From the NCBI GenBank assembly GCA_003223215.1, contig QHYH01000135.1, forward strand, positions 1 through 37,699: DNA of 37,699 nt, written 5' to 3'. Below are positions 12,671 through 34,887 of the stretch, piece after piece (position 1 is the first letter of the stretch; every line of letters begins with the position of its first letter). The position numbers and the translations under genes are program-made. Under the pieces are notes generated by a model that searched no databases, was not told the DNA's origin, and worked only from the letters and a program-made list of their open reading frames with translations. This DNA is from Acidobacteriota bacterium (lineage in GTDB: Bacteria; Acidobacteriota; Terriglobia; Acidiferrales; UBA7541).

Positions 12671-14488
12671 ATGACCTCGTCCCGCACCATCACTTGGAGC
12701 CTGGGGATTTGGGCGTTCGTCCTTGCCCTTTATGCCGGCGTTTCCCTGTCGCATCCGCGCGGCTCGCAGACGCTAGTCGCGTTCGGCGATGTGGTGCAGT
12801 GCACCGTGCCGTTGATTGCGAATGCCGGGCTGCTCCTCAACGCGGGTACGCCGTACTGGCGGCGCAACATCTTCTGGATGCTGATCGCGTTGAGCTGCAC
12901 GCTATGGATGATCGGGCAGTTTGAATGGACCTATTATGAGGTCTATCTACATAAGCCGTTGCCCGGGCTGTATCCAGGCGACATTCTGTTTTTCTTGCGG
13001 GGCATTCCGCTAATAGCTGCGCTGGCTCTCCAACCGCACCGCAAGCGCGGCGAGGTGCGCGCCCGGCTCGGATACCTGGACTTCGGCCTGTTGTTGGCCT
13101 GGTGGACGTTCGTTTACATCTTTTTTGTGATGCCCTGGCTTTACGCGACGCCGGATATCGCCCAGTACAATCACAATTTCAACGTTATCACCGACACGCA
13201 AAACGGCCTCATTGTGCTCGGGCTCATGTTGTTGTGGCTGCGAAGCCGCGGGGCTTGGAAAAAAGTGTACTTCCATCTGCTCGGCGCTTCTGTGGTTTAC
13301 ATGCTGGCCTCTTTGGTCGTGGATGTGCAAAGTGATGTCGGCATTTATTACACGGGAAGCCTGTACGACCTCCCGATTATTTCTTCTTTTTTCTGGCTCG
13401 CATTGGCCGGCTTGATCGCTTATTTGAATCGCGCGCAACTGGACGCCGCTCAGCCGGGGGAATCGCTCGATTCCCGCGACGATTCCGCAGAAAATGTCCA
13501 CGGTTGGTCCAGCCATCTGGCCATGACGGCGGTCGTTTCTCTGCCTCTTCTCGCTCTATATAGTTTGCATGCCGACAATATGGAACCGGGCGTTCGTGAT
13601 TTCCGGTTGGTGACCACCGTGGTGGCGGCGTTGCCGCTAGCCGGCTTGATCTTTGTGCGCAGCCACTTTGCGGAGGTGGACCGCGCCCGCCTGCTCGTGC
13701 GGTCCGAACAAGCACTGAAAAATCTGAAGCGCCTTCAGGCGCAGCTCGTTCAAACGGAGAAGCTTGTGTCGCTGGGGCAGCTCGCCGCCGGTGCCGCCCA
13801 TGAAATCAATAATCCTCTCGCCGCGATTCTCGGGTTTTCCGATCTCCTGGCCGATGATCAAACCCTGCCTGAGAAGGCGCGTTGCACGGCTTCGAAGATC
13901 CGCGAACAGGCACGGCGGACCAAAACGCTGGTAGGAAATTTGCTCAGCTTCGCGCGCCAGGTGCCCCCCGAGCGCACGCTCCTCGATATCAATACCGTGG
14001 TAAACAATGCCGTTCAGCTTCGCGCACTCGACCTCCGCCCTTCCACGGCGCGCATTGAACAACAGCTCGAATCAGTGCTTCCCGGAGTGCGCGGCGATGG
14101 GAATCAGCTCATGCAGGTCTTCTTCAATCTCATAAGCAACGCGGTGGACGCCATGGAAGCGCACCAAGGCGGCCTGCTTACGATTAAGACCATGCGCGAC
14201 CGCGGCAACGTGGTCATTCTGTTTTCCGACACCGGTACCGGCATCAAGGAGCCGCATCGCGTTTTCGATCCCTTTTACACCACCAAACCCGTGGGTAAGG
14301 GCACAGGTCTCGGTCTGAGCATCTGCTTCGGAATCGTTCAGGAACACAGCGGGAAGATTCTTTGCTACAACCGCCAGGAAGGCGGCGCGGTTTTTCGCGT
14401 CGAACTGCCGGCGGTTCTTGCGGGCCTTCCAGCCAGGGAATTACAACAGCTCACCGCCCAAGGATCGAATCCGCGCAAACGCGCTTGA
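12671..14488 (+). CDS. Multi-pass membrane sensor histidine kinase
   Basis: A 605-aa class I histidine kinase. Residues about 8-330 contain some 8-10 hydrophobic helices with short loops and no large periplasmic domain, so it probably senses something in or near the membrane. The H-box is LGQLAAGAAHEINNPLAAIL with His377. The ATPase domain has the N-box NLISNAVDAM (Asn490), DTGTGI (520-525) and GTGLGLS (544-550), all intact. There is no receiver domain and no adjacent response regulator. The first gene to the right of the islands, it is followed on the same strand by an ABC exporter 94 bp downstream, which could be its output. That link rests only on proximity. Confidence 0.92.
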   Translation: MTSSRTITWSLGIWAFVLALYAGVSLSHPRGSQTLVAFGDVVQCTVPLIANAGLLLNAGTPYWRRNIFWMLIALSCTLWMIGQFEWTYYEVYLHKPLPGLYPGDILFFLRGIPLIAALALQPHRKRGEVRARLGYLDFGLLLAWWTFVYIFFVMPWLYATPDIAQYNHNFNVITDTQNGLIVLGLMLLWLRSRGAWKKVYFHLLGASVVYMLASLVVDVQSDVGIYYTGSLYDLPIISSFFWLALAGLIAYLNRAQLDAAQPGESLDSRDDSAENVHGWSSHLAMTAVVSLPLLALYSLHADNMEPGVRDFRLVTTVVAALPLAGLIFVRSHFAEVDRARLLVRSEQALKNLKRLQAQLVQTEKLVSLGQLAAGAAHEINNPLAAILGFSDLLADDQTLPEKARCTASKIREQARRTKTLVGNLLSFARQVPPERTLLDINTVVNNAVQLRALDLRPSTARIEQQLESVLPGVRGDGNQLMQVFFNLISNAVDAMEAHQGGLLTIKTMRDRGNVVILFSDTGTGIKEPHRVFDPFYTTKPVGKGTGLGLSICFGIVQEHSGKILCYNRQEGGAVFRVELPAVLAGLPARELQQLTAQGSNPRKRA

Positions 14489-14582: not shown

Positions 14583-15371
14583 ATGCCCGAAATAGCCATT
14601 CGCACGCAAAGGCTGACCCGCAGATTCGGGAACCTCACCGCCGTTGACGGCGTCGACCTCCAGGTTGCCGCCGGCCAGTTCTTCGGTTTCCTCGGGCCGA
14701 ATGGTGCGGGCAAATCCACGACCATTAAGATGCTCACCGGCTTGCTTGCACCAACCGCGGGAAGCATGGACCTTCTCGGGCTGGACTTTGCGACGCATCC
14801 GGTCGAAGTGAAGCGCCAGATCGGGGTGGTGCCGGAAGGCATGGGGCTTCTCGAACGCCTCACCGGTTCGGAATACTTGCAATTCGTCGGGCGCATGTAC
14901 GGTCTAGATCGCCGAATGACACAACAGCGCGCGAACGAGTTGCTGGATTTCATGCAACTCGCGGACCGCCCCAAAACGTTGATCGCGGACTACTCGCATG
15001 GCATGCAAAAGAAACTGGCGCTTGCCGCCGCGGTCATTCACGGGCCGCGGATTTTGTTTCTGGATGAGCCGTTCGAAGGCGTCGACGCGCTCGCAGCGGG
15101 TGTGCTCAAAGCTCTTCTGGGTCGCATGACCGAGCGCGGCACTACGATTTTCCTGACATCCCACGTTTTGGAAATTGTCGAGCGCCTTTGCAGCCACGTG
15201 GCCATCATTCACAAAGGGAGGCTAGTGGCGCAGGGTTCGCTGGAAGAGTTGCGCGCCGACATTTCCGGCGAGGCCGGCAGCAAAACGACGCTCGAACAGG
15301 TGTTTCTCTCGATTGTGGGGCAGGACGGCACCGAACGCCCACGTTTGGAAGAACTCTCATGGCTGATGTAG
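14583..15371 (+). CDS. ABC-2 type transporter ATP-binding subunit
   Basis: A 262-aa ATPase of the ABC-2 exporter class. Walker A is GPNGAGKST (38-46), the signature region reads YSHGMQKK (137-144), Walker B is ILFLDEPFEGVD (157-168) and the switch His lies in LTSHVLE (His194). The signature departs from LSGGQ but is common in this subfamily, which pairs with large permeases. Its last 13 bp overlap the start of the permease gene, so the two are translationally coupled. It powers export of an unknown substrate at the inner membrane. Confidence 0.95.
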   Translation: MPEIAIRTQRLTRRFGNLTAVDGVDLQVAAGQFFGFLGPNGAGKSTTIKMLTGLLAPTAGSMDLLGLDFATHPVEVKRQIGVVPEGMGLLERLTGSEYLQFVGRMYGLDRRMTQQRANELLDFMQLADRPKTLIADYSHGMQKKLALAAAVIHGPRILFLDEPFEGVDALAAGVLKALLGRMTERGTTIFLTSHVLEIVERLCSHVAIIHKGRLVAQGSLEELRADISGEAGSKTTLEQVFLSIVGQDGTERPRLEELSWLM

Positions 15372-17008
15372 CCAGCCCCATCGGGATACTGACGCAAGTT
15401 CGTGTGGTTGCCGGGCTGCGCTGGCGCATTCTTCGCAACGGTCTGCGCAAGAAGGCCAGTCGTTTCGATCTGCTCGGCCTGATCCTTCTCGGAGTTTTTA
15501 GCGGATTTTTCGTGGTGGGGCTGTGCGTCGCTTTCTTCACCGGTGCTTATGCGTTTCTTTCCGAAGGCCGCTTCGGCTTGTTTGGGCTGCTGTTCTGGTG
15601 CATTTTCCTGTTCTGGCAGCTATTTCCCATTTTTGCAGCGGGGTTCGGGGCCAGCTTCGAATTCCGCTCGATGCTCCGTTTTCCGCTGAATCTCACCGCG
15701 TTTTACGTCATCGGTCTGGCCTACGGCTTGGCGGATTTTTCCGCGGTGGCATCAGTTTGCTGGCTTGCCTCCATGACACTCGGCGCGGCAGCAGCGCGGC
15801 CGGGAGTGCTGCCCGCGATGCTGTTGGTTGCGGCGCTGTTCTTATTGCTCAACGTGACTTTGGAGCGGCTTGTTGGTTCGTGGCTCGAGCGGTTGCTCTC
15901 GCGGCGCCGGACCCGCGAGTTGTTTTTCGCTCTGTTCATTCTCGCAATGGTTTCTCTGAACCTCATCGAACCGACTATGCGCCACTATGGCGGATTGTTG
16001 GGGCCGCTGGCTCTGCGGATCATTCCGTATTTTGCGTGGCTTCCGCCTGCACTTGCGGGCAGAGCGATTGCGGCGGCCGCCGAGGCCCGGTTCGGATGGT
16101 TGGTTTTGGGTTCGGCGGGGCTGTTCGTTTATGCCGCGGTGTTCAGCGTTTTTCTCTGGCGGCGATTCGCTTCGCAATATCGCGGAGAAGAACTGAGTGA
16201 AACCGCAGCGCCCGTGCCTGCGGCAGCACGCGCCCTAGCAAAACCGGCAGACTCCTCAGATCGTTTGAGTGCGCTATCGCCGCAAGTGGCCACGGTCGTC
16301 CGTAAAGAGTTCCGCTACCTCACGCGCAACACGTTTTCCTTTTTCACCCTGATCATGCCCCCGGTAATGGTCCTCATCTTTGGCACCATGTTTGCCGGAA
16401 AACACCCGGCCTCGGAGCATCCGGTCTCTCCTGAAATGCTTTTCCCGGGCATCATGGCCTATCTCGTCCTGATTCTGATGGGGCCTGCCTATAATTGCTT
16501 TGCCTTTGAAGGCCGCGGCATCCAAACCTACTTCATGGCGCCGCTGCATTTTCGTGACATTTTTCTTGGCAAGAATCTGATGCTCCTGTCGGTGCTGGGC
16601 GTTGAAACCGTATTGTCTTTGGTGATGCTCGCCTGGCTGCTGGGATTGCCCTCGCTCCCCGTCTTCCTGGCTACGATGGCTGCCATCGTGTTTGCCGTCG
16701 TTGGGCAGCTGAGTATTGCCAACTGGTCTTCGGTCACCTTTCCGCGCAAGCTCGAATTCGGCCAGATCCGCGGTCAGCGGCAGTCCGGTATGGCCGTGCT
16801 CCTGGCCTTTGCCGCCCAAATTGTGTTCGGCGGAGTGTCCGCGGTGGTTCTTTTTAGCGGGCGCTGGACGGGGAATCGTTGGTTCCCCGCTGAAGCCTTC
16901 ACCTTGCTTGCGGCGGCGGCCGTCGGTGGCTACTTTGCCTCGCTTGACAGCATGTCGCGGCTGGCCGAAGAAAAGAAAGAAGTGCTGATCGAAGCGTTGT
17001 GCCGATGA
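15359..17008 (+). CDS. ABC-2 type transporter permease subunit
   Basis: A 549-aa membrane protein starting at ATG 15359 inside the end of the ATPase gene. There are about 12 hydrophobic segments in two halves: first around FDLLGLILLGVFSGFFVVGL to LFVYAAVFSVFLW, then FFTLIMPPVMVLIFGTMF to FTLLAAAAVGGYFASL. A hydrophilic Ala/Pro-rich linker (AAPVPAAARALAKPADSS) separates them. The second half begins with VVRKEFRYLTRNTFSFFTLI, the typical cytosolic coupling segment of ABC-2 permeases. A double-length permease suggests it works as one polypeptide with the ATPase dimer. Substrate unknown. Confidence 0.9.
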   Translation: MADVASPIGILTQVRVVAGLRWRILRNGLRKKASRFDLLGLILLGVFSGFFVVGLCVAFFTGAYAFLSEGRFGLFGLLFWCIFLFWQLFPIFAAGFGASFEFRSMLRFPLNLTAFYVIGLAYGLADFSAVASVCWLASMTLGAAAARPGVLPAMLLVAALFLLLNVTLERLVGSWLERLLSRRRTRELFFALFILAMVSLNLIEPTMRHYGGLLGPLALRIIPYFAWLPPALAGRAIAAAAEARFGWLVLGSAGLFVYAAVFSVFLWRRFASQYRGEELSETAAPVPAAARALAKPADSSDRLSALSPQVATVVRKEFRYLTRNTFSFFTLIMPPVMVLIFGTMFAGKHPASEHPVSPEMLFPGIMAYLVLILMGPAYNCFAFEGRGIQTYFMAPLHFRDIFLGKNLMLLSVLGVETVLSLVMLAWLLGLPSLPVFLATMAAIVFAVVGQLSIANWSSVTFPRKLEFGQIRGQRQSGMAVLLAFAAQIVFGGVSAVVLFSGRWTGNRWFPAEAFTLLAAAAVGGYFASLDSMSRLAEEKKEVLIEALCR

Positions 17009-17046: not shown

Positions 17047-19251
17047 ATGAAGTGGCTCGTTCGAACCGCGAGTTCGCTGCTATTTCCTTTGCTCATCGCT
17101 TGCTCCGCAAGTGCGCAGGCCGCTTTTGATTGCCATTTTGACCAAGTACCCGCAGTTTCGGGCTACGAACAGCCGCTGATCGAGGAGCTTCGCGCGGAGC
17201 TGCGCCCTCTCTCACCCAAGACCGATAATGTCGGTAACCTTTGGGTTACCTTTGGGAGCGGCTCGCCGCAACGCCTGCTGGTTACGCCCGTCGATGAACC
17301 TGGTTACGTCGTCAGCGAGATCACTCCGGACGGCTACTTGCGCGTGCAACGCTTGCCGCAAGCCGCACCCAATCCGGTATTTGACACGCTGCATTTTGCC
17401 CAGACAATTTGGGTAATGACGCGCTCCGGAAAGAAAGTTCCCGGAGTCTTCGCCGGGCTGAGCATTCATCTTCAGCCCGCGCGTGTTAACCCCCCGAAAA
17501 TGAATCATCCCGACGAAATGTACGTGGATCTTGGCGCCACAGGCGCTGCCGACGTGCATGCTGCGGGGGTGGACCTCCTCGATCCAATTGCACTCCAACG
17601 GAAATGGTTTCCGGTAGGCCAAGGTGGGGAAGCAGGAGCGGCCGCCGGCGATCGCTTTGGATGCACCGTATTGTCGCAGTTGCTGGAACGAATCAAGGAC
17701 GCCAAAGCGAAAGGAACAACAACCGTCGCGTTTCTAACGCAACAGTGGACCGGAGGGCGCGGCCTCAACCGTTTACTGGAAGAGACAAAGCCAGACGAAA
17801 TGATTTTTGTCGGCCGCATGGCGACAGGCGGCAAAAGCGTCGCCAGGGCCGGTACCGCGGCGCTCACGCCTGGGGATGGCGTGCTTCTGGGAGTGGAAGA
17901 CGCGTCAGCGCCGCTGAGTGCGTTTCCCGGCGAGATCAAAGCCATTGCCGAAGCGGATGGCGAACGCGTGACAGCCGTAAGCGCGTCACTACCACGGATA
18001 GCGGGCTATGCCAAGCCAAACGCATTTCCGGAACGCTTCGCGCAACTTGGAATTCCGACACTTTGGCCGGTGACCCCTGGGGAGTCCATTTCCTCGGGCG
18101 ATAGCGGGAATCTGGAACGACTGCTTGAAGCGTATTTACAGGTCCCTAAGTCCACCACTGGCGGGCTACGAGGAGGTTCTGGCGGCGGCACCACGATCTC
18201 CGACCTTAAAGCGCTGGTCGACGCGTATGGCGCAAGCGGCCATGAAGAAAACGTTCGCAAAGTGGTTCTCAATCGGTTGGATCCAAGATTGCAGAAAGAA
18301 GCGGAGACCGATGCGGACGGAAACCTGATCTTGCATCTTGGCGATCGAAAGCCCGACGCAAAGTCGCCACGGATTGCGTTTGTAGCGCATATGGACGAGA
18401 TCGGATACGAGGTGAAGAAAATAGAAAACGATGGGCGACTCTTGGTATCCGTTCTGGGAGGAGGCTATCCAGAATACTTTCTGGGGCATGTTGTCGTCAT
18501 TCATAAAGCCGATGGGAATTCTGTTGGCGGGGTGCTCGAGTTGCCGGCAGGTTGGGATCAGCCGGGATTCGAATGGCCGCATGGGCCGCACTCGATGGAA
18601 GAGCCCGTGTACGTTTACCTCGGCACGCGCTCCGCGGAAGAAACGCAGAAGCTCGGAATCAAAGTGGGGGATTGGATCACCATTCCCAAGGAATATCGCC
18701 CCCTGCTGGGAACGCGCGCAAACGCGCGCAGCTTCGATGACCGGGTCGGTTGCGCCGCGCTTGTCGAAGCGGCGCGGGCGCTCGGGCGGGATTTGCCGGG
18801 GCGCGACGTGACGTTTATCTGGTCGACGGAAGAAGAAGTCGGGCTGAAGGGCGCAGCGGCAGCCGCGGAGCACATGGCCAAACAGGGCCGCACGCCCGAT
18901 TTTGTCTTTGCCATCGACACTTTCGTCAGCGCCGATTCTCCGCTCGAATCGAAGCGCTTCGCTGACGCAGAAATTGGCAAAGGATTCGTGGTTCGGGCAG
19001 TAGACAATTCGAACATCACGCCGCGCGAATATGTCGATCGTGTCGTCAAGCTGGCGTACGAAAACGGCATCCCCGCGCAATTCGGCGTCACCGGCGGCGG
19101 CAACGATGGCGCGGTCTTCACGCGTTATGGCTCGGTGAATATTCCCCTGGGCTGGCCTTTGCGCTATTCGCATTCCCCAGCCGAAATCATCGATACGCGC
19201 GACCTCGACGCTCTCGCCAAGATCGTCACAGTACTGGCGAGAAGCTGGTAG
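17047..19251 (+). CDS. Secreted tandem M42-type metallopeptidase, first copy inactive
   Basis: A 734-aa protein from ATG 17047, chosen for a GGAG 8 bp upstream and the signal peptide that follows (LLFPLLIACSASAQA, with a possible lipobox LIAC). It holds two homologous M42-like aminopeptidase domains joined by a Gly-rich linker (GGLRGGSGGGTT). The second copy (about 380-734) keeps the dinuclear metal site: His448 in AHMDEIG, Asp564 in SFDDRVG, the catalytic EE pair at 595-596 in STEEEVGLKG, Asp624 in AIDTF and His709 in YSHSPAE. In the first copy (about 30-370) the aligned positions read Pro81, Gly201, Gln232-Gln233, Arg and Glu, so it should bind no metal. It follows the exporter permease after 38 bp on the same strand and may be co-transcribed. 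Confidence 0.9.
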   Translation: MKWLVRTASSLLFPLLIACSASAQAAFDCHFDQVPAVSGYEQPLIEELRAELRPLSPKTDNVGNLWVTFGSGSPQRLLVTPVDEPGYVVSEITPDGYLRVQRLPQAAPNPVFDTLHFAQTIWVMTRSGKKVPGVFAGLSIHLQPARVNPPKMNHPDEMYVDLGATGAADVHAAGVDLLDPIALQRKWFPVGQGGEAGAAAGDRFGCTVLSQLLERIKDAKAKGTTTVAFLTQQWTGGRGLNRLLEETKPDEMIFVGRMATGGKSVARAGTAALTPGDGVLLGVEDASAPLSAFPGEIKAIAEADGERVTAVSASLPRIAGYAKPNAFPERFAQLGIPTLWPVTPGESISSGDSGNLERLLEAYLQVPKSTTGGLRGGSGGGTTISDLKALVDAYGASGHEENVRKVVLNRLDPRLQKEAETDADGNLILHLGDRKPDAKSPRIAFVAHMDEIGYEVKKIENDGRLLVSVLGGGYPEYFLGHVVVIHKADGNSVGGVLELPAGWDQPGFEWPHGPHSMEEPVYVYLGTRSAEETQKLGIKVGDWITIPKEYRPLLGTRANARSFDDRVGCAALVEAARALGRDLPGRDVTFIWSTEEEVGLKGAAAAAEHMAKQGRTPDFVFAIDTFVSADSPLESKRFADAEIGKGFVVRAVDNSNITPREYVDRVVKLAYENGIPAQFGVTGGGNDGAVFTRYGSVNIPLGWPLRYSHSPAEIIDTRDLDALAKIVTVLARSW

Positions 19252-22428: not shown

Positions 22429-25400
22429 ATGAGAAAATCTCTGTATTGGTTATGCATGGTGGTCCTGCTGTTGAGCCTTGGTCGCACCAAGGCCTTTGCT
22501 CAGGCTACGGCAAGTGCGACGATTCAAGGCACGATTACGGACAAATCGGGAGCGGTCGTGGCCGGCGCGGAAGTCGTAGTGAAAAACAAGGCTACGGACA
22601 TTACAAGAACTACTTCGAGCGATGAGACTGGTTCTTACCGCTTCGAATTGTTGCCTGTGGGGACCTATACGGTCACCGTCACGAAAGGCGGATTTGGAGC
22701 TTTTACGCAAACGATCGAAATTCTCGTCGGTCAGACCGCGACCGCAAATGCGGAGCTAAAGCCGGGTGCGGAAAGTGAGGTCATCGAGGTGACCAGCGAA
22801 GCGCCCCTTCTCGATCAAGCCAAGACCGACGTGAGCCAGAACATCACACCGACAGAGGTCCAAGAGCTGCCCATGGTCGGACGCGATGTTGCCAATCTCG
22901 CCTACCTGGCGCCCGGCGTGAAGCCTGCCGATTCTTACGACCCCACAAAAAACCGCTATGCCATTCTTTCGGTCAACGGAAACAATGGACGCGACGTGAA
23001 CGTGACGGTTAACGGTGTGGACAATAAGGACAACACGGTGGGCGGCCCAGTCATGCAGCTTCCGTTGGAGGCGGTGGCGGAATTCCAGATCAGCACACAG
23101 CGGTTCTCAGCCGTGAATGGACGCTCGCAAGGCGCGGCGATCAATATGATTACCAAGTCGGGCACGAACCTCCTTCACGGCTCTTTCTTCGGCTATTTCC
23201 GCGCCACCAATTTGAACACGGATGAGAAGGATCCCAGCGGCACGGGCACCACAACTAAGTCTCATCCCGACTACACACGCCAGCAATTTGGGGGATCGTT
23301 GGGGGGCACATTTAAGAAGGACAAGCTCTTTGGTTTCTTTGCCCTCGAACGCGAACGCGAACACCAAGCACAGACAGTGGACGCCACGTCTCTCAGTGAG
23401 CTGACCATCGCGGAGGCGAACGGTTTTGCGGCTCAGCCTTCACCCACGATTCCGCGGCCTTTCTTTGAATGGCGTTATAACGGCCGGATGGACTGGGTCA
23501 TCGACAGTAAGAACAGCGCCTACCTCAGCTACACCTCGCAGGTTAATGACAGCCTGAATGACCAGTCGGACGCCACGATGGACCTAACCGAAGGCAACTT
23601 CACCAGAAACCACCTGATCGCGAGCAATCTTACGTTGAACTCCAACGTCTCAAATACGACCGTCAACCAATTCACATTTGGCTATCAGTATTGGAACAAC
23701 CTCATTGACAGCAACTTGCGTGCTCCTAACATCATATTCCCAAACGCCTCGTTCGGTACCAACACGAACGTTCCTCAGCAATCTTTCCAGAAGAAATGGC
23801 AATTCAAGGATGACCTTTCAAAAACGATTGGCCACCATACAGTGCAGGCGGGCGTAGACTTCATCTACAACCCTGTCGAGGGCGGCTTTTTTGAGTTCAA
23901 TCCCACGCTTCTAATTCGCTTTGGAGCCAACCCCAGCACGATCTTGGACAATCCTTCAACGTATCCACAAGGGTTTGCCACGCCAGGCCTAGTTACTGAA
24001 ATGTCCATCGCCAACGGGAACCCGTACTTCCTGGTGGCCACCAAACAGCTCGGTTTCTACGGCCAGGATACTTGGAGAGTTAAGCCTCGTCTGACGCTCA
24101 ACCTCGGCCTTCGTTGGGACAAAGATTTCAATATGATTGGCGGTTCGGAGATCCAGAACAGCCGCACTTACCAAGAGCTGGTTGCGCTTAACAGCCCGAT
24201 CTCCAATCCTTATGTCAGCCGGATTGCGCACGACGACAACAAGGACTTCAGCCCACGCATCGGCTTCGCCTACGATTTGACCGGCCGGAGCAAGCACGTG
24301 GTGCGCGGAGGGTTCGGCCTCTACTTTGGGAATGTGTTCCAAAACATCCCGTTGTTCATGGAGCAGCAGGCCAACGCCACCATTTTTCAGACTTTATTCG
24401 ACATCACCGACCCCGTCAAAGACACCGTCCCGGGAACTGGGATACCTCTCGGCCAATGGCGTTATGGCGTGGACCCCATGCCCACGATCGCGCCTCCGTC
24501 GTCGCAGCTCAATCCCGGCAGCGTAGGCCGTCTGATGGACCCAAACTATCGCAACCCAGTGACCGAAGAGTTCAATGGCGGCTATAGCTTGGCGCTGAAT
24601 GCAAACGCAGCGGTAGAAGTGGAATACACCCACGTTCTTGGCCTGCACGACAATAAGACCATCAACGTCGACCAGAAGGTGCCCGTAAATGGAACCTGCT
24701 GCACCCGCCCGCTCGATGGTGCCTTTACAGCATCGAATCCGCCGCTGCCGGAATTGGGGAGCGTTCGCAACGACGAGTCGATTGGCCGTTCTCACTACGA
24801 CGGGATAAACTTCACATTCCGTCAGCGCATGAGCCATCGTTTCCAGCTGTATGCCAACTACACGCTGGGGTGGGCGTATGCCTATGACGGCGGAGGTGCT
24901 TCGTACCGCACCTACCCCAGGCTTTCCACCAACCCGTTTGCTAGCTACGAGTGGGGCCCGTCGCCGAACGACGAGCGGCACCACGTCACCATCAGTGGCA
25001 TCGTCGATTTGCCAAAAGGCTTCCAGCTCTCGCCAATCTTGCAGTTCGGCTCGGCGCGTCCTTACAATCTAACCAACTCATCGAACACGCTAAACACCGG
25101 AGGAGGCACGGCGAGTGCCGTGGTCGTGCCCACGAACGCTCCTACGAACTGGTTCGCATTCGCAGGGAATGCCACAGGGGCGCAGAACTGCTTCTACGGG
25201 TTGAACGGAGTTACGCAGGGATGCACGATTGCGAAGTATGATCCGCTGCGCGGCGACCCTTTCTTTGAGCTCGACACGCGGCTCGCGAAGAATATCAAGT
25301 TCGGCGATCGCATGAACTTGCAATTGCTCGCACAAGCGTTCAACCTGACCAATCGCGCCAACTATGGCAACAACTTTGGCAATAACATTGCCTCGCCTTC

Positions 25401-25494
25401 GAGATTCGGTCATCCGGTCGGATTCATCGCCCCGGCCAGCACCATCATTCCACACGCACTGTGGGGTGAACTCGGCGCCCGTTTCACGTTCTAA
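22429..25494 (+). CDS. Oar-like TonB-dependent outer membrane receptor
   Basis: A 1021-aa receptor from ATG 22429, with a GGAGAGG ribosome site just upstream. A signal peptide (SLYWLCMVVLLLSLGRTKAF, then AQA) precedes a carboxypeptidase-regulatory-like domain at about 28-110 (ATIQGTITDKSGAVVAGAEV ... LPVGTYTVTVTKGGF). The plug follows at about 125-245, with ELPMVGRDVANLAYLAPGVK and NVTVNGVDNKDNTVGGPVMQ. The remainder is a large beta-barrel with repeated aromatic strands such as FYGQDTWRVKPRLTLNLGLR, ending in ...GELGARFTF with the C-terminal Phe needed for outer-membrane assembly. Acidobacteriota carry many such receptors, thought to import oligosaccharides or other large nutrients; the ligand is unknown. 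A terminator follows directly. Confidence 0.94.
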   Translation: MRKSLYWLCMVVLLLSLGRTKAFAQATASATIQGTITDKSGAVVAGAEVVVKNKATDITRTTSSDETGSYRFELLPVGTYTVTVTKGGFGAFTQTIEILVGQTATANAELKPGAESEVIEVTSEAPLLDQAKTDVSQNITPTEVQELPMVGRDVANLAYLAPGVKPADSYDPTKNRYAILSVNGNNGRDVNVTVNGVDNKDNTVGGPVMQLPLEAVAEFQISTQRFSAVNGRSQGAAINMITKSGTNLLHGSFFGYFRATNLNTDEKDPSGTGTTTKSHPDYTRQQFGGSLGGTFKKDKLFGFFALEREREHQAQTVDATSLSELTIAEANGFAAQPSPTIPRPFFEWRYNGRMDWVIDSKNSAYLSYTSQVNDSLNDQSDATMDLTEGNFTRNHLIASNLTLNSNVSNTTVNQFTFGYQYWNNLIDSNLRAPNIIFPNASFGTNTNVPQQSFQKKWQFKDDLSKTIGHHTVQAGVDFIYNPVEGGFFEFNPTLLIRFGANPSTILDNPSTYPQGFATPGLVTEMSIANGNPYFLVATKQLGFYGQDTWRVKPRLTLNLGLRWDKDFNMIGGSEIQNSRTYQELVALNSPISNPYVSRIAHDDNKDFSPRIGFAYDLTGRSKHVVRGGFGLYFGNVFQNIPLFMEQQANATIFQTLFDITDPVKDTVPGTGIPLGQWRYGVDPMPTIAPPSSQLNPGSVGRLMDPNYRNPVTEEFNGGYSLALNANAAVEVEYTHVLGLHDNKTINVDQKVPVNGTCCTRPLDGAFTASNPPLPELGSVRNDESIGRSHYDGINFTFRQRMSHRFQLYANYTLGWAYAYDGGGASYRTYPRLSTNPFASYEWGPSPNDERHHVTISGIVDLPKGFQLSPILQFGSARPYNLTNSSNTLNTGGGTASAVVVPTNAPTNWFAFAGNATGAQNCFYGLNGVTQGCTIAKYDPLRGDPFFELDTRLAKNIKFGDRMNLQLLAQAFNLTNRANYGNNFGNNIASPSRFGHPVGFIAPASTIIPHALWGELGARFTF

Positions 25495-26795: not shown

Positions 26796-29750
26796 ATGCG
26801 TAATGAAGTTCGAAAGCAGATCGCCCTTGCCATTTCATTTTTCGGCGCAGCCGTCCTTGTGTCCTTTCCCCCTGCGGTAAGGGCCCAGAACCCGGGTGGT
26901 TCGCTCCTTGTCACGGTGCAGGATTCGACTGGCGCCCGAGTGGCCGGAGCGAGTGTTTCACTGACCCAGGAGAAATTCGCGATATCGCGCACAGGCAAGG
27001 CCGACGCCCAAGGCGAAAAACGGTTCGAATCACTGCAGCCGGGAAGTTACACGGTTACGGTGAACGTCACAGGCTTTGCGGAAAAGACCGCCGCGGTGGT
27101 CGTCGCGGTGAGCAGCCAGCCGGTGCTGGTGGTAACGCTCCAACCGCAATCCGTCCGGGAATCCGTGGAGGTGCGCGACCGCGGCCCTTCGCTTGCGAGC
27201 CAGCCTATTGAGACGACCAGCAGCACCATCAAGACCGTCATCACGTCATCCGACCTTGACGAAGTGCCGCTTTCCGCGCGCAGCTTCGCCAACATTTCTT
27301 ATCTCGCTCCTTTTACCGCGCCGGTCGAACCTTCAGACCCCACGAAGGCCCGCATCACCGCGGTTTCTTTTGGCGGAAGCTCCGGGTTGAACGTGGACCT
27401 TTCCGTCGACGGCGGCGACAACAACGACGACTACATCGGCGGCTTCCTGCAGAATTTCTCGCCGGAGGCCGTCGGGGAGTTCGTCGTTCGAACCTCGCAG
27501 TTCGGCGCCGATACTTCAAGGACCAACGGTGGAAGCGTGATTATCTCGACGCGCCGCGGCACGGATGATTGGCACGGCAGCGCCTCCTACTATTACCGCG
27601 GCAGGGGCTTGAACGCGCGAAACGCGCTCGACAATCCTGAACCGAATCCCAAGCAGCCGTTTTCGCGCCAAAACGGAGTCGGCTCGCTTGGCGGACCGCT
27701 CAAAGTCAAGAAGCTGTGGTTCTTCACTTCTTACGAATACATTGACGAGAACGCCAGCCTGGCCTACAGCGCGAAATCGCTTTCCGAATTCAACGCGCTG
27801 GCGCAAATGGCTGCCGCAGGGGATCTGCCCGACGTTTCTTCCATTGCCACGATTCCGTCCTCTGTCTCCGTCCCTTTTCGCGACACGCTTTTTTCGACGC
27901 GCCTCGATTGGACGCAATGCTCGCACTCGCAATGGTTCGCGCGCGGCTCGCTCGACCGCAACACTACGAAGAACGATCTATTGCAACAGGGGGCCTTGCC
28001 ATCGACCGGCGCGACGACTACGTCGAACTACTACAACGTGCTGATGAACAACCAGTTACAATTCTCGCCGTCTTGGCTCGGCACGCTCACTCTGGAAGCC
28101 AGCGGATTCCATCACACCAAACTGCGCAACTCCGAGATTGGCCAGGCGTTGAATTTTCCCTTCACCGTGAGCTTCCTCACGACTTCCGGCCTTGAGACCT
28201 TCGGCGACAATCAGTTTGCCACCGCCATTACCGCGTTCCCCATTGAGCGCGACCAGCAGAAATACCAGTTCCGCTACGACGTTTCGCGAGCCGCGGGGCG
28301 TCACGCAGTGCGCTTTGGAGTGAACCTCATCCACGAGCCGGTCCTGCGCGGCGAGCTTACCGGCAACCGTGAGACCGTTTTCACTTACCTGCAAGATCCG
28401 AGTTTCTATGTCTCGAATCCGGGCGTACTCGGGACCTGCGCTTCTTCGAATCCCGATCCGAATTGTCCGGCGGTCCATACCGCGGGGCCATTGGACGGCT
28501 CCTTCTCGCAAAGCATCCGGCGCCTCGGGCTATATGCGGAAGATTCATGGCGCGTTACTCCGTCTTTTACTTTGAACGCGGGCTTGCGTTACGACACGAC
28601 CTTTGGATTGTTTATCGCCGCCGGCCACGATCAAAGGCTGAATCCGGCGCTCGCGGGCAATGGCGTTGTTTCCGGAATCCCGCACGATTACCGCAAGGCG
28701 ATCGCGCCGCGCTTAGGCGTTGCGTTCGCGCCGCATGGATCCGCCACAACCGTCCTGCGCGCGGGAGTCGGAATGTATTACAACGATCTCGCGCAGAACG
28801 GCTGGGTGGACGCGTTCACCGCGGTCAACCAATTCAATCTCGCGAACGGCACGAGCACGCCGGCGCTGATCGATTCGAACTACCACACGCCGTACGCGCT
28901 GATGGCCAGCGCGGCCTACGAGCACGAGTTAGGAAACAATTGGCGGTTGAGCCTCAGTTACGAGCATCAGCAAGGAGGACACCAATATCGGCGCTACGAG
29001 TATCCGGGTTTTTCCCTTTTTCGCAGCGATAACCGCTCCATCTACGACGGCTTGGCCGTGCAGATGCAACACAGCTTCGCTCACCGCTTCGAATTGACGG
29101 CCAATTACGTTCTTGCGCACGCGACCACCTGGGGCGCCACCGTCGGCGAACTGTTCGATTACGTCAACGGTGTTTCGAACGTTCACGATCCCTTCGGTCC
29201 CGGAGATCACGGTCCTTCCGGCGAAGATATCCGCCATCGCTTCGTACTGGTTGGCGTCTTGCAACTTCCCTGGAAATTCGAGGCGTCCACCTTGGCGCAG
29301 TTGGAAAGCGCTCGCCCATACACCATGACGACCCCTTTCGATGTCAACGGCGATGGAGTGGCGAATGACCGTGCGGTAGTAAATGGCGTGCAGACGACGC
29401 TCGATGAGTTCCGCGGTTCGCCTTTCTATCAGGTGGATGTGCGCGTAAGCCGTAACATCGTTCTTGGCGAGCGCGCCACTCTGCGGCCGTTCGCCGAATT
29501 TTTCAATCTTTTCAACCACCTGAATCCAGGCAATAACTACGTGCCGGATATCTCGGCGTTGCCCACGCCAGTGAACAATCCTGCCAACGCCACAGCTTTT
29601 TGCCTCGACCCCGCCTGCACACAGACGAAGCCCATCACCAGCCTGAACCAACTGCGTGTTCCGGCAGGTGCGCTTGGCGATTTCTTCGGACCGGGCACAA
29701 CCGTGGGCATTCCTTTCGCCGCACAAGTGGGCCTAAGGCTCACCTTTTGA
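26796..29750 (+). CDS. Second Oar-like TonB-dependent receptor
   Basis: A 984-aa outer membrane receptor from ATG 26796. The signal peptide (IALAISFFGAAVLVSFPPAV, then RAQ) is followed by a carboxypeptidase-regulatory-like domain (SLLVTVQDSTGARVAGASVS ... LQPGSYTVTVNVTGF). A plug-like region includes EVPLSARSFANISYLAPFTA and VDLSVDGGDNNDDYIGGFLQ, and the barrel ends ...AAQVGLRLTF with a C-terminal Phe. The architecture is the same as the receptor at 22429 but the sequence is divergent, so this is not a recent duplication. The Asp/Asn-rich motif GDNNDDY and the segment FDVNGDGVANDRAV could bind calcium. Ligand unknown. A weak ribosome site suggests modest expression or an uncertain start. Confidence 0.93.
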   Translation: MRNEVRKQIALAISFFGAAVLVSFPPAVRAQNPGGSLLVTVQDSTGARVAGASVSLTQEKFAISRTGKADAQGEKRFESLQPGSYTVTVNVTGFAEKTAAVVVAVSSQPVLVVTLQPQSVRESVEVRDRGPSLASQPIETTSSTIKTVITSSDLDEVPLSARSFANISYLAPFTAPVEPSDPTKARITAVSFGGSSGLNVDLSVDGGDNNDDYIGGFLQNFSPEAVGEFVVRTSQFGADTSRTNGGSVIISTRRGTDDWHGSASYYYRGRGLNARNALDNPEPNPKQPFSRQNGVGSLGGPLKVKKLWFFTSYEYIDENASLAYSAKSLSEFNALAQMAAAGDLPDVSSIATIPSSVSVPFRDTLFSTRLDWTQCSHSQWFARGSLDRNTTKNDLLQQGALPSTGATTTSNYYNVLMNNQLQFSPSWLGTLTLEASGFHHTKLRNSEIGQALNFPFTVSFLTTSGLETFGDNQFATAITAFPIERDQQKYQFRYDVSRAAGRHAVRFGVNLIHEPVLRGELTGNRETVFTYLQDPSFYVSNPGVLGTCASSNPDPNCPAVHTAGPLDGSFSQSIRRLGLYAEDSWRVTPSFTLNAGLRYDTTFGLFIAAGHDQRLNPALAGNGVVSGIPHDYRKAIAPRLGVAFAPHGSATTVLRAGVGMYYNDLAQNGWVDAFTAVNQFNLANGTSTPALIDSNYHTPYALMASAAYEHELGNNWRLSLSYEHQQGGHQYRRYEYPGFSLFRSDNRSIYDGLAVQMQHSFAHRFELTANYVLAHATTWGATVGELFDYVNGVSNVHDPFGPGDHGPSGEDIRHRFVLVGVLQLPWKFEASTLAQLESARPYTMTTPFDVNGDGVANDRAVVNGVQTTLDEFRGSPFYQVDVRVSRNIVLGERATLRPFAEFFNLFNHLNPGNNYVPDISALPTPVNNPANATAFCLDPACTQTKPITSLNQLRVPAGALGDFFGPGTTVGIPFAAQVGLRLTF

Positions 29751-32328: not shown

Positions 32329-33672
32329 ATGTTTGAGAACCTGACCGAAAAACTGCAACGAGCCTTCAAGAACCTGCGCGGGCGGGGCAAGCTCACCGAA
32401 GAGCATCTCGACGCGGCCCTAGCGGAGATCCGCGATGCGCTGCTCGAAGGCGACGTCAACGTGGGAGTCGCCGACGAGCTGCTCACCAACATCCGCAAAA
32501 AAGCCATCGGCAGCGAAGTGATGCTGCAACTCTCTCCCGACCAGCAGGTCGTCAAAGTCGTGCGCGATGAACTGGCTGCGCTGCTCGGCAAGCACGCGAA
32601 GCCGCTGTTTGCTGCGAAGCCTCCTTCGGTGTGGATGATCGTTGGTCTGCAAGGCTCCGGCAAAACGACCACGACCGGCAAACTCGCCAAATGGCTTACC
32701 CAACATGGGCACCGGCCTATCTTGGTGTCCACCGACGTGTACCGCCCCGCCGCGCGGGAGCAGCTCACGCAAGTGGCTAAAGCGATTGGCGCGGCGCTCT
32801 GGCCCGGCGCCGGCACCGACAAACCAATCGAAATCGTCAAGGGGGCTATCAAGGAAGCAAAACTGTCCGCGAGCGACGTCATCCTCGTGGACACCGCCGG
32901 CCGCTTACACATCGACGACGAGCTGATGAACGAGCTCAGCGTGCTCAAGAAAGAATTGCAGCCGACCGAAATCCTGTTTATCGCGGACGCCATGATCGGC
33001 CAGGACGCGGTGCGGTCGGCAGGCGAATTTCACAAGCGGCTCGGCCTGACCGGAGTGATTTTGACCAAGCTCGACGGCGACGCGCGCGGCGGCGCGGCGC
33101 TGAGCATCAGCAAAGTTTCCGGCGCGCCGGTGAAGTTTGTGGGCTTGGGCGAGAAATACGACGCCCTGGAAGGGTTTTATCCCGAGCGCATTGTTTCGCG
33201 CGTCTTGGGCATGGGCGACATCCTGTCGCTTATCGAGCGCGCCGAACAGGTGGTGGATCGGAAAGCCGCTGAGGAGCTCGAACGCAAGCTCCGCAAGTCG
33301 GAATTCACGCTCGAAGATTTCCGCGACCAGCTCCGGCAAGTGCGCAAGATGGGACCGCTTGAGCAGATTGTGGACATGCTGCCGAAAATGGGGCCGCTCG
33401 CGAACTTGCCAAAGAATGCAAGCGTGGACGAGAAAAAGCTCAAACAGGTGGAGGCCATCATAAATTCGATGACCGATGAAGAGCGGCGCGATCACAACGT
33501 CATTGACGGCAGGCGGCGGAAGCGCATTGCGAAGGGCAGCGGCACCACGGTGCAGGACGTCAACACCGTCCTAAAGCAGTACCTGCAAATGCGCACCATG
33601 ATGAAGCAGTACGGCGCCATGGCCCTACGCGGCAAAATGAGAGGCCTCGGCAAACTCTCGGGCCTGTCCTGA
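32329..33672 (+). CDS. ffh: Signal recognition particle GTPase Ffh
   Basis: A 447-aa SRP54 protein of normal length. The N domain (1-85) starts MFENLTEKLQRAFKNLRGRG. The GTPase domain has G1 GLQGSGKTTTTGKLAK (Lys112), the SRP-specific insertion with DVYRPAAREQL, G3 DTAGRLHIDDEL (Asp188) and G4 TKLDGDARGG (246-255). The methionine-rich M domain (about 325-447) includes KMGPLEQIVDMLPKMGP and LQMRTMMKQYGAMALRGKMR, which bind 4.5S RNA and signal sequences. With FtsY it delivers nascent membrane proteins to the Sec translocon. It is the clearest housekeeping gene of the window. Confidence 0.98.
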   Translation: MFENLTEKLQRAFKNLRGRGKLTEEHLDAALAEIRDALLEGDVNVGVADELLTNIRKKAIGSEVMLQLSPDQQVVKVVRDELAALLGKHAKPLFAAKPPSVWMIVGLQGSGKTTTTGKLAKWLTQHGHRPILVSTDVYRPAAREQLTQVAKAIGAALWPGAGTDKPIEIVKGAIKEAKLSASDVILVDTAGRLHIDDELMNELSVLKKELQPTEILFIADAMIGQDAVRSAGEFHKRLGLTGVILTKLDGDARGGAALSISKVSGAPVKFVGLGEKYDALEGFYPERIVSRVLGMGDILSLIERAEQVVDRKAAEELERKLRKSEFTLEDFRDQLRQVRKMGPLEQIVDMLPKMGPLANLPKNASVDEKKLKQVEAIINSMTDEERRDHNVIDGRRRKRIAKGSGTTVQDVNTVLKQYLQMRTMMKQYGAMALRGKMRGLGKLSGLS

Positions 33673-33720: not shown

Positions 33721-34887
33721 TCAATTTTTCGCGGGCAAAAACAGGTCCGCGACTTCGAGCGATAGCTTTTCTGGATCGAGGTCGGTGCGGTTGGAAAGAA
33801 TGATGATAGTGAGGTTTTCTCCGAGGAAGCGTTCGACCACGGTACGAAAGCCCATCGTTGATCCGGTGTGCCACATGCGCGGGTGGCCGTTGTAAGGATC
33901 GAGGAACCAGCCAAACCCGTAGCAAACGACTTTGCCCGGATGAAGATTGTCGCCGTTCGGTTCTTTGGGCCAATGCGGTTCGGAGCCGTCGTTGAGTTTC
34001 ACCGGCGTTAAGGCGGGCTGCATTTCTTTGTCGCTGAGCAGCGCGTGATTTCCGAGCGCGTCGTCCCACTTTGCGAGATCTTCGAGATTCGAGTATATGC
34101 CGCCGTCGCCAAGCGTTGCCGAGGTTGCGCTTTGATCGGTCTCCTTAAACAGACCATTTTCTTTGGAGTGGCCGAAGGCGCGATTCGCAACCTCGTTTTT
34201 TCCTTTTTGGTAGGCGATCGTGTGATGCATCTTCAGCGGAGCGAAAATGCGGTCGCGAAGGAATTCTCCGTAAGGTTTTCCTGAGGCTTTGGCGACGATC
34301 AGACCGAGCACGACATAACCGGAATTGCTGTAGGACCAACTCGTGCCGGGCGCAAACTTCCCCGATTGTTCCTTCTCCAACAACTTTAAGACCTCATCGT
34401 CCTGGATTTGTTTTTCGGGAGACCACATCGAGCCATTCGCTTGTTCTGCTTCTGCCATCAAATCTTCGTAATCCGGCAAACCGGAAACGTGATTCAGAAG
34501 GTTACGAACCGTGATCGTTTTTCCATAATCCGGAAAATCCGGAAAGACTTCGCCGAGCGTTTCGTCAGCTCGGAGTTTTCCGTCGTGCACCAGAAGCATG
34601 ACGGCCATAGCGGTAAATTGCTTGGTAAAGGAAGCCAGGCGGAAATTGGTGCGCGCATCGATTTTGACTTTCGAGCGGAGATCGCGCACGCCGTAGGCGC
34701 GCTCGAATGCGGTCTTGCCATTGTGGCGCACCAGCACCGCGAGACCCGGCGCGTCCGGGGAAGTCAGGGCCAAAAAAAGCTCATCTACCTTCTTCTCCAC
34801 AAGGGCCAGAGAGGTTTGCTCTCCCAAGGTACTTGCTACGCCTAAGGGGGAGAGAACTAAAGCCAAGCCAATGAGAACGCGATTCAC
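33721..34887 (-). CDS. Serine hydrolase of the class C beta-lactamase family
   Basis: A 388-aa protein from ATG 34887 with a signal peptide (VLIGLALVLSPLGVASTLGE). Penicillin-binding-protein-type motifs are complete: SFTK with nucleophile Ser86 and Lys89, YSN at 186-188 and HTG at 340-342. The family contains AmpC beta-lactamases, D-amino-acid peptidases and esterases; HTG in place of KTG points to a peptidase or esterase rather than a true beta-lactamase. It is expected in the periplasm. It converges on ffh with 48 bp between and diverges from the XRE regulator, which might control it. Confidence 0.93.
   Translation of the reverse strand: MNRVLIGLALVLSPLGVASTLGEQTSLALVEKKVDELFLALTSPDAPGLAVLVRHNGKTAFERAYGVRDLRSKVKIDARTNFRLASFTKQFTAMAVMLLVHDGKLRADETLGEVFPDFPDYGKTITVRNLLNHVSGLPDYEDLMAEAEQANGSMWSPEKQIQDDEVLKLLEKEQSGKFAPGTSWSYSNSGYVVLGLIVAKASGKPYGEFLRDRIFAPLKMHHTIAYQKGKNEVANRAFGHSKENGLFKETDQSATSATLGDGGIYSNLEDLAKWDDALGNHALLSDKEMQPALTPVKLNDGSEPHWPKEPNGDNLHPGKVVCYGFGWFLDPYNGHPRMWHTGSTMGFRTVVERFLGENLTIIILSNRTDLDPEKLSLEVADLFLPAKN

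Follow-up and report, generated by a model that had tools for sequence, protein, structure and literature searches.

A double peptidase of a soil bacterium, predicted to be exported, is encoded in the stretch of Acidobacteriota DNA analysed here (37,699 nucleotides, hereafter the window), and sequence comparisons suggest that its two homologous halves jointly build one active site. The N-terminal half (D1) and the C-terminal half (D2) would associate as an M42-type dimer, in which D2 gives the metals and the general base and D1 a loop histidine (loop His) that acts in trans. We assign this reading, which draws on residue patterns and on analogy with characterised enzymes, a probability of about 0.7.

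The gene is a single ORF, uninterrupted from the ATG at 17047 to the stop codon at 19251, and encodes 734 residues. Its modular organization is the following.

17047..19251, plus strand: M42 protein with two fused domains, 734 aa and stop codon (single ORF, Pfam M42 matches)
17047..17121, plus strand: predicted N-terminal export signal, residues 1-25 (hydrophobic stretch)
17134..18147, plus strand: D1, metal-dead M42 domain, residues 30-367 (Pfam, predicted structure)
18148..18195, plus strand: glycine-rich linker, residues 368-383, without start codon and without export signal
18196..19248, plus strand: D2, metal-intact M42 domain, residues 384-734 (Pfam, structure match to TET2)

Two M42 domains on one polypeptide had been proposed in the initial annotation, and both halves indeed score over the curated cut-off of the Pfam M42 family (PF05343, 23.2 bits), D1 with 98.5 bits (E 4.8e-28) and D2 with 205.9 bits (E 9.1e-61). 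M42 matches in the genome (8.8 Mb, 97.65% complete) occur at this ORF alone. In phmmer searches of PDB sequences, both halves match M42 enzymes, PhTET1 being the top match (E-values of 3.4e-16 for D1 and 8e-44 for D2). The best score of the whole protein against the NCBIfam M42 equivalogs (glutamyl and lysyl aminopeptidases, and others) is 203.2 bits, below the cut-off of 412, and no M16 family appears in the Pfam results up to an E-value of 1. Residues 1-25 reach a best 12-residue Kyte-Doolittle mean of 2.12, and the best hydrophobic window in the linker is 0.64.

The predicted models of D1 and D2 both have the M42 fold, including the dimerisation-domain insert. D1 modelled alone (pTM 0.85) matches M42 structures end to end, as evidenced by its similarity to the M42-type enzyme 1ylo, the best structural match (Z 32.6, 312 residues, 3.2 A), and to TET2 (Z 31.9); the earlier view that D1 keeps this fold is thus borne out. 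The D2 part of the full-length model matches TET2 (1y0y) with Z 38.7 over 324 residues. The pTM of that model (0.82) only suggests a settled arrangement of D1 and D2. By sequence and fold D1 is a homologue of M42 enzymes, and not an M42 enzyme on its own.

D2 carries five metal ligands and the base (H448, D564, E596, E597, D624 and H709).

18388..18396, plus strand: His448-x-Asp450 (alignment)
18553..18555, plus strand: Trp503, at the loop-His position of ordinary M42 enzymes (alignment)
18736..18738, plus strand: Asp564, bridging metal ligand (alignment)
18832..18837, plus strand: Glu596 (general base) and Glu597 (metal ligand), roles assigned from the homologous PfTET3 Glu207/Glu208 (PMC4745047)
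18916..18918, plus strand: Asp624, metal ligand (alignment)
19171..19173, plus strand: His709, metal ligand (alignment)

Metal roles in D2 are assigned because of the PfTET3 residues, described as His314, Asp177 and Glu208 for M1, Asp177, Asp230 and His63 for M2, and Glu207 as the base (PMC4745047). The complete set had been recognized before, with the glutamate pair placed at 595-596. The pair is 596-597: the D2 motif TEEEVG aligns with QEEVG of the TETs, and residue 595 is variable in relatives, whereas 596-597 are constant.

In D1, the alignment with D2 reveals that the five metal ligands and the base have all been replaced, as had been claimed. Some partners differ from those originally named: the glutamate pair corresponds to Gln233-Trp234 (not 232-233), Asp624 to Gly256 (not Arg) and His709 to Val342 (not Glu).

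17287..17289, plus strand: Pro81, replaces metal ligand His448 (alignment)
17293..17295, plus strand: Asp83, retained counterpart of Asp450 (40/40 D1 rows with letters)
17467..17469, plus strand: His141, loop His, with a proposed role at the D2 site (invariant in D1)
17527..17529, plus strand: Asp161, invariant in D1; Tyr524 in the D2 of the window (alignment)
17647..17649, plus strand: Gly201, replaces bridging ligand Asp564 (alignment)
17743..17748, plus strand: Gln233-Trp234, replace base Glu596 and ligand Glu597 (alignment)
17812..17814, plus strand: Gly256, replaces ligand Asp624 (alignment)
18070..18072, plus strand: Val342, replaces ligand His709 (alignment)

The replacement does not extend to the whole active site of D1: Asp83, the partner of D450, is retained in 40/40 rows. 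The annotation had also overlooked the loop His of D1 (H141), which is lost in D2 (W503).

The metal site and the loop His are lost reciprocally. Rows of D1 (41), D2 (40) and ordinary M42 proteins (32, including the close-relative groups L115-L120 and L022-L027 without L024) were compared at columns conserved in ordinary M42 proteins; L050 was kept out of the domain tables owing to a frameshift within the D2 of that record. In this first set the metal-site columns are retained in D2 and lost from D1. H448, D450, D564, E596 and E597 are present in 40/40 D2 rows and H709 in 38/38, and the partner of E597 is Glu in 0/41 D1 rows. The loop His shows the opposite distribution, being found in 40/40 D1 rows with letters, 2/39 D2 rows and 31/32 ordinary M42 rows. 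The D2 loop column mostly features Tyr or Trp in place of His; the only D2 domains with His in this column are L057 and L058, from the same genus. The lone ordinary M42 protein without loop His is E. coli YpdE (L136), in which the column is a gap.

A second set was drawn from genomes fetched after the pattern was seen, with one duplicate removed (L154, identical to L040) and L159, from a genome already used, omitted. To its 37 D1 rows the window's own family contributes 29 and the rest of the phylum 8. The loop His is found in 37/37 D1 and 0/37 D2 rows, no D2 row with letters has lost a metal residue, and the E597 partner is Glu in 0/37 D1 rows. Both sets summed, the loop His is present in 77/77 D1 and 2/76 D2 rows, and in 31/32 ordinary M42 proteins with metals intact. 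Loss of the loop His from D2 may be a single inherited event, so that the rows are not independent.

Other columns show weaker patterns. Asp161 behaves like the loop His in the first set, less strictly (D1 40/40, D2 14/40, ordinary M42 32/32). In the second set it is found in all D1 rows and also in 32/39 D2 rows (duplicate included); because most D2 rows of this set keep Asp161 too, the residue is non-reciprocal within the window's family. Arg at the 238 column is present in 25/41 D1, 3/39 D2 and 31/32 ordinary M42 rows of the first set.

Only 14 of 310 D1 columns are occupied by one residue in at least 95% of rows. Besides His141, the positions that persist are Asp161, Asp83 and, otherwise, mostly glycines. 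A conserved pocket at the old metal site of D1 was looked for across the phylum in the first set and was not found. For instance, the partners of E596 (Q, S, E, R, others), E597 (W, L, Y, V, others) and H709 (G, Q, A, H, others) all vary across the phylum. Inside the window's own family, the QQW-type motif is well preserved. Asp83 and Asp161 match the loop His in invariance in D1, a metal-free domain.

The pair occurs in both fused and split forms. A search with the window protein matched 30 of 61 genomes, and 16 of the 61 (window included) hold one full-length fused match. Searches with the family alignment matched 48/297 genomes in a phylum draw at E 1e-20, ordinary M42 proteins included, 39/396 genomes in a larger, overlapping draw at E 1e-60, and 54/95 genomes within the order. 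In L019, L021 and 14 further loci, D1 and D2 are encoded by distinct genes next to each other. At every split locus the D1 gene adjoins D2, in most with D1 ahead; the pairs of L071 and L142 are in reverse order, with D2 ahead of D1. A hydrophobic N-terminus typical of export is found in the window protein and in the split relatives, where it occurs in 16/16 D2 and in 15/15 readable D1 genes (best 12-residue mean at least 1.90); no stretch as strong occurs in the linkers of the window protein and 10 fused relatives (maximum 1.81). A start codon after the linker in homologues had been named as evidence against the double form. Some genomes do have such a start, yet there D1 is the adjacent gene and has its own predicted export signal, so the pairing of D1 and D2 stands. 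The reading frame is apparently broken in L050 (inside D2), L033 (at the N-terminus) and G012 (across contig pieces).

The dead half is present in every surveyed genome in which the pair was readable. A contig scan, with patterns taken from one protein and thus reaching close relatives only, yielded 20 loci, of which 19 carry Acidobacteriota names and one (L039) is titled Gammaproteobacteria; L039 is possibly a mislabelled MAG. Among plasmids, 83 records match. Two of these cover more than 80% of the query, with both halves on the same single M42 gene, and the 10 regions opened contain one M42-type gene each.

Phylogenetic analyses reveal that D1 and D2 are an ancient duplicated pair in Acidobacteriota, each half of single origin. 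In the domain tree, a branch with an SH-aLRT of 100 sets the 40 D1 rows apart, and another with 98 the 40 D2 rows. D1 (99), D2 (99) and 23 ordinary rows (99) are separate in a tree with more ordinary M42 rows, from which near-duplicate rows were omitted. An unpaired M42 protein, predicted to be exported and featuring both metals and loop His (L066 / L128, G129:C86), is nearest to the D1/D2 pair; L066 is a natural control that would represent the ancestral state. In the larger tree, a quick search and thus of modest weight, L066 falls on the D1/D2 side, next to D2 (84).

Distances among D1 domains correlate with those among D2 domains (r 0.889, 39 genomes; the top of 2000 permutations is 0.231). 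On the concatenated tree the fused/split label requires five changes (bootstrap range 4-6), and at least four changes are forced by well-supported branches. L065 and L079 were omitted from this tree, and one domain of each from the domain tree. Such recurrent joining of one and the same pair would be a classical indication of joint action. Purifying selection acts on D1, with dN/dS of 0.10-0.14 in four of five relatives (the fifth is saturated); D2 shows values of 0.075-0.091 in five comparisons. D1 is the faster-evolving half (mean p-distance 0.67 vs 0.55 for D2). The idea of a two-domain form with a conserved pseudo-enzyme half, predicted to be exported, therefore agrees with the presence of D1 in all readable pairs and its dN/dS.

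The region upstream of the M42 gene encodes the following proteins.

12671-14488, plus strand: histidine kinase, just upstream of the M42 gene
14583-15371, plus strand: ABC ATPase
15359-17008, plus strand: membrane protein without Pfam match, probably an ABC permease

Of 17 related loci, 9 have the kinase next to the M42 gene and 8 the ABC ATPase and permease; the rest have none, some of them with short flanks. This neighbourhood is a feature of nearer relatives and holds little information on function. Elsewhere in the window, 22429-25494 and 26796-29750 encode large outer-membrane beta-barrels with carboxypeptidase-regulatory-like and TonB-receptor-like matches, 32329-33672 an SRP54-type GTPase (signal recognition particle protein), and 33721-34887, on the minus strand, a serine beta-lactamase-family protein (PF00144), a family with many non-resistance enzymes among its members. 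A Trypsin_2 search of the window's own genome gave no lead.

A role for the loop His is known from related enzymes. In human DNPEP, a member of M18, His170 at the tip of a dimerisation-domain loop is reported to complete the active site of the opposing subunit; it touches the carbonyl oxygen of a substrate analogue, and the His170Phe change abolishes activity (PMC3472314). The authors describe the His as conserved in M42 and propose a loop-swapped site common to M18 and M42; the loop is disordered in the M42 structures available to them (PMC3472314). In TET2 the counterpart is His123, which is said to stabilise bound substrate. H123 mutants bind substrate more weakly, mutations in the loop have up to tenfold effects on Km, and H123 may lie near the site of the adjacent subunit, but this reach is no more than suggested for M42, as the distance between His and site varies among structures from 4 to over 20 A (PMC8993905).

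The reciprocal pattern bears on this point. If the loop His acted in cis, D2, the bearer of the metals, would be expected to keep it. If it acts in trans, only the His of D1 serves the metal-bearing site and the His of D2 would serve the dead one; retention in D1 and permitted loss in D2 are then predicted, as observed. The pair is therefore read as one site shared by two half-degenerate copies. An exported M42 aminopeptidase would have duplicated once, long ago, and given rise to an obligate pair of specialised copies, which are in one chain here. D2 would have retained the two-metal site and the general base and lost the loop His; D1 would have lost the metal site and base and retained the dimerisation-domain loop His. 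The two would associate as in an M42 dimer, His141 of D1 extending into the D2 site, so that each pair makes one complete active site. In this scheme we infer the physical pairing, the trans reach of His141, the aminopeptidase activity and the export.

We also think it rather probable that such complementary decay in an exported M42 lineage, one copy losing the metals and the other the trans-acting loop His, left each half incomplete and locked the pair together, whether fused or separate. The loop His would thereby be shown to act in trans, and the product would be an asymmetric, half-sited enzyme and not the TET tetrahedron. An asymmetric D1-D2 pair has no place on the twofold axes of a symmetrical TET tetrahedron, and the two kinds of domain would exclude a tetrahedron of identical subunits. 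PhTETs are described as assembled from dimers (PMC4220976). The different assembly suggested at the outset is likely, and it is probably smaller or less symmetrical than TET. The Arg at position 238 of D1 corresponds to PfTET3 Arg212, which sits at the subunit interface (PMC4745047), and its frequent loss from D2 fits an altered assembly.

Other roles for D1 have to be weighed against a shared site. Dead halves often bind partners, and D1 could be a pseudo-enzyme that holds a regulator or a peptide substrate in its old cleft, feeding or gating D2. This seems unlikely to us: the QQW-type motif, well preserved near the window protein, is in its favour, but the old metal-site positions drift freely over the phylum, and the constant positions are His141, Asp83, Asp161 and, for the most part, glycines. 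The original suggestion that the dead half binds substrate thus lacks a metal-site pocket conserved across the phylum, while a part of it is retained in the invariant loop His, whose counterpart in related enzymes acts on the active site of the partner. A slightly less likely alternative is that D1 is only a scaffold, its dimer interface keeping D2 folded or assembled. His141 could be retained for a structural reason, and the enrichment of the interface-type Arg238 in D1 agrees with a scaffold role. However, D2 needs the same fold and yet has lost the loop His, which a scaffold leaves unexplained, as it does the weaker substrate binding of TET2 His123 mutants (PMC8993905). The invariance of Asp161 and Asp83 in D1 is not accounted for by the His alone.

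We regard it as highly improbable that D1 is a functionless relic kept by chance, or that the fusion is an artefact of assembly or frame. The faster evolution of D1 would be expected of a relic, but this explanation is already contradicted by the fused full-length relatives, by split genomes that retain a D1 gene with its own predicted export signal, by the dN/dS of D1 and by its invariant loop His. An artefact is rejected, given the one frame in the window and the fused matches in other genomes.

The structures described do not settle whether M42 enzymes use their mobile loop His in cis or in trans (PMC8993905, PMC3472314). A lineage with metals and loop His on separate domains would answer this question by natural genetics, and the separation opens trans action to direct tests by point mutation and by splitting the partners.

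The closest homologues of known function are the M42 (TET) aminopeptidases, such as P. horikoshii TET1-TET3 and T. maritima TmPep1050, which resemble the window protein in fold, in the metal ligands and base of D2 and in the loop His of D1. A TET subunit is complete by itself, having both the metals and the loop His, whereas here these are split between two copies, His141 being in D1 and Trp503 in D2; moreover, the pair is one chain or two adjacent genes and is predicted to be exported. Two M42 paralogues in one complex are described for the PhTET2-PhTET3 hetero-dodecamers (PMC4220976) and for B. subtilis YtoP-YsdC (PMC10090944). Unlike the proposed D1-D2 pair, PhTET2-PhTET3 complexes are modelled from homodimer blocks (PMC4220976). 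We found no description of a dead partner in the parts of these two reports consulted (PMC4220976, PMC10090944), nor any report of a dead M42 partner in titles and abstract openings of the open-access literature, and the term M42 is absent from the main text of a 2024 review of inactive metallopeptidase homologues (PMC11266112).

Donation of a His by a partner also occurs outside M42. In DNPEP (M18), His170 of the partner subunit completes the site, the role proposed here for D1 (PMC3472314); DNPEP is a homododecamer of identical subunits, whereas donor and acceptor are different domains in our case. In M20, a conserved dimerisation-domain His has a proposed or demonstrated active-site role in DapE and aminoacylase-1; these are homodimers with a different dimerisation domain, and the role of the DapE His is described as unconfirmed (PMC4012986).

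M16 peptidases also combine a half with a metal site and a homologous half without one, either fused, as in IDE, or as separate subunits, as in MPP and SPH2681/SPH2682 (PMC12731061). The inactive M16 half is reported to complete the site through an Arg/Tyr pair (PMC12731061), whereas a dimerisation-domain loop His is proposed here. The M16 fold is unrelated, and the likeness is one of analogy only. By that analogy, the half-site principle known from IDE and MPP would here be found within M42. If this is true, the pair is an M42 counterpart of the M16 'two halves' design that arose in a different fold: by its working principle it would be closest to M16 peptidases. In sequence and fold, D1 and D2 alike group with M42.
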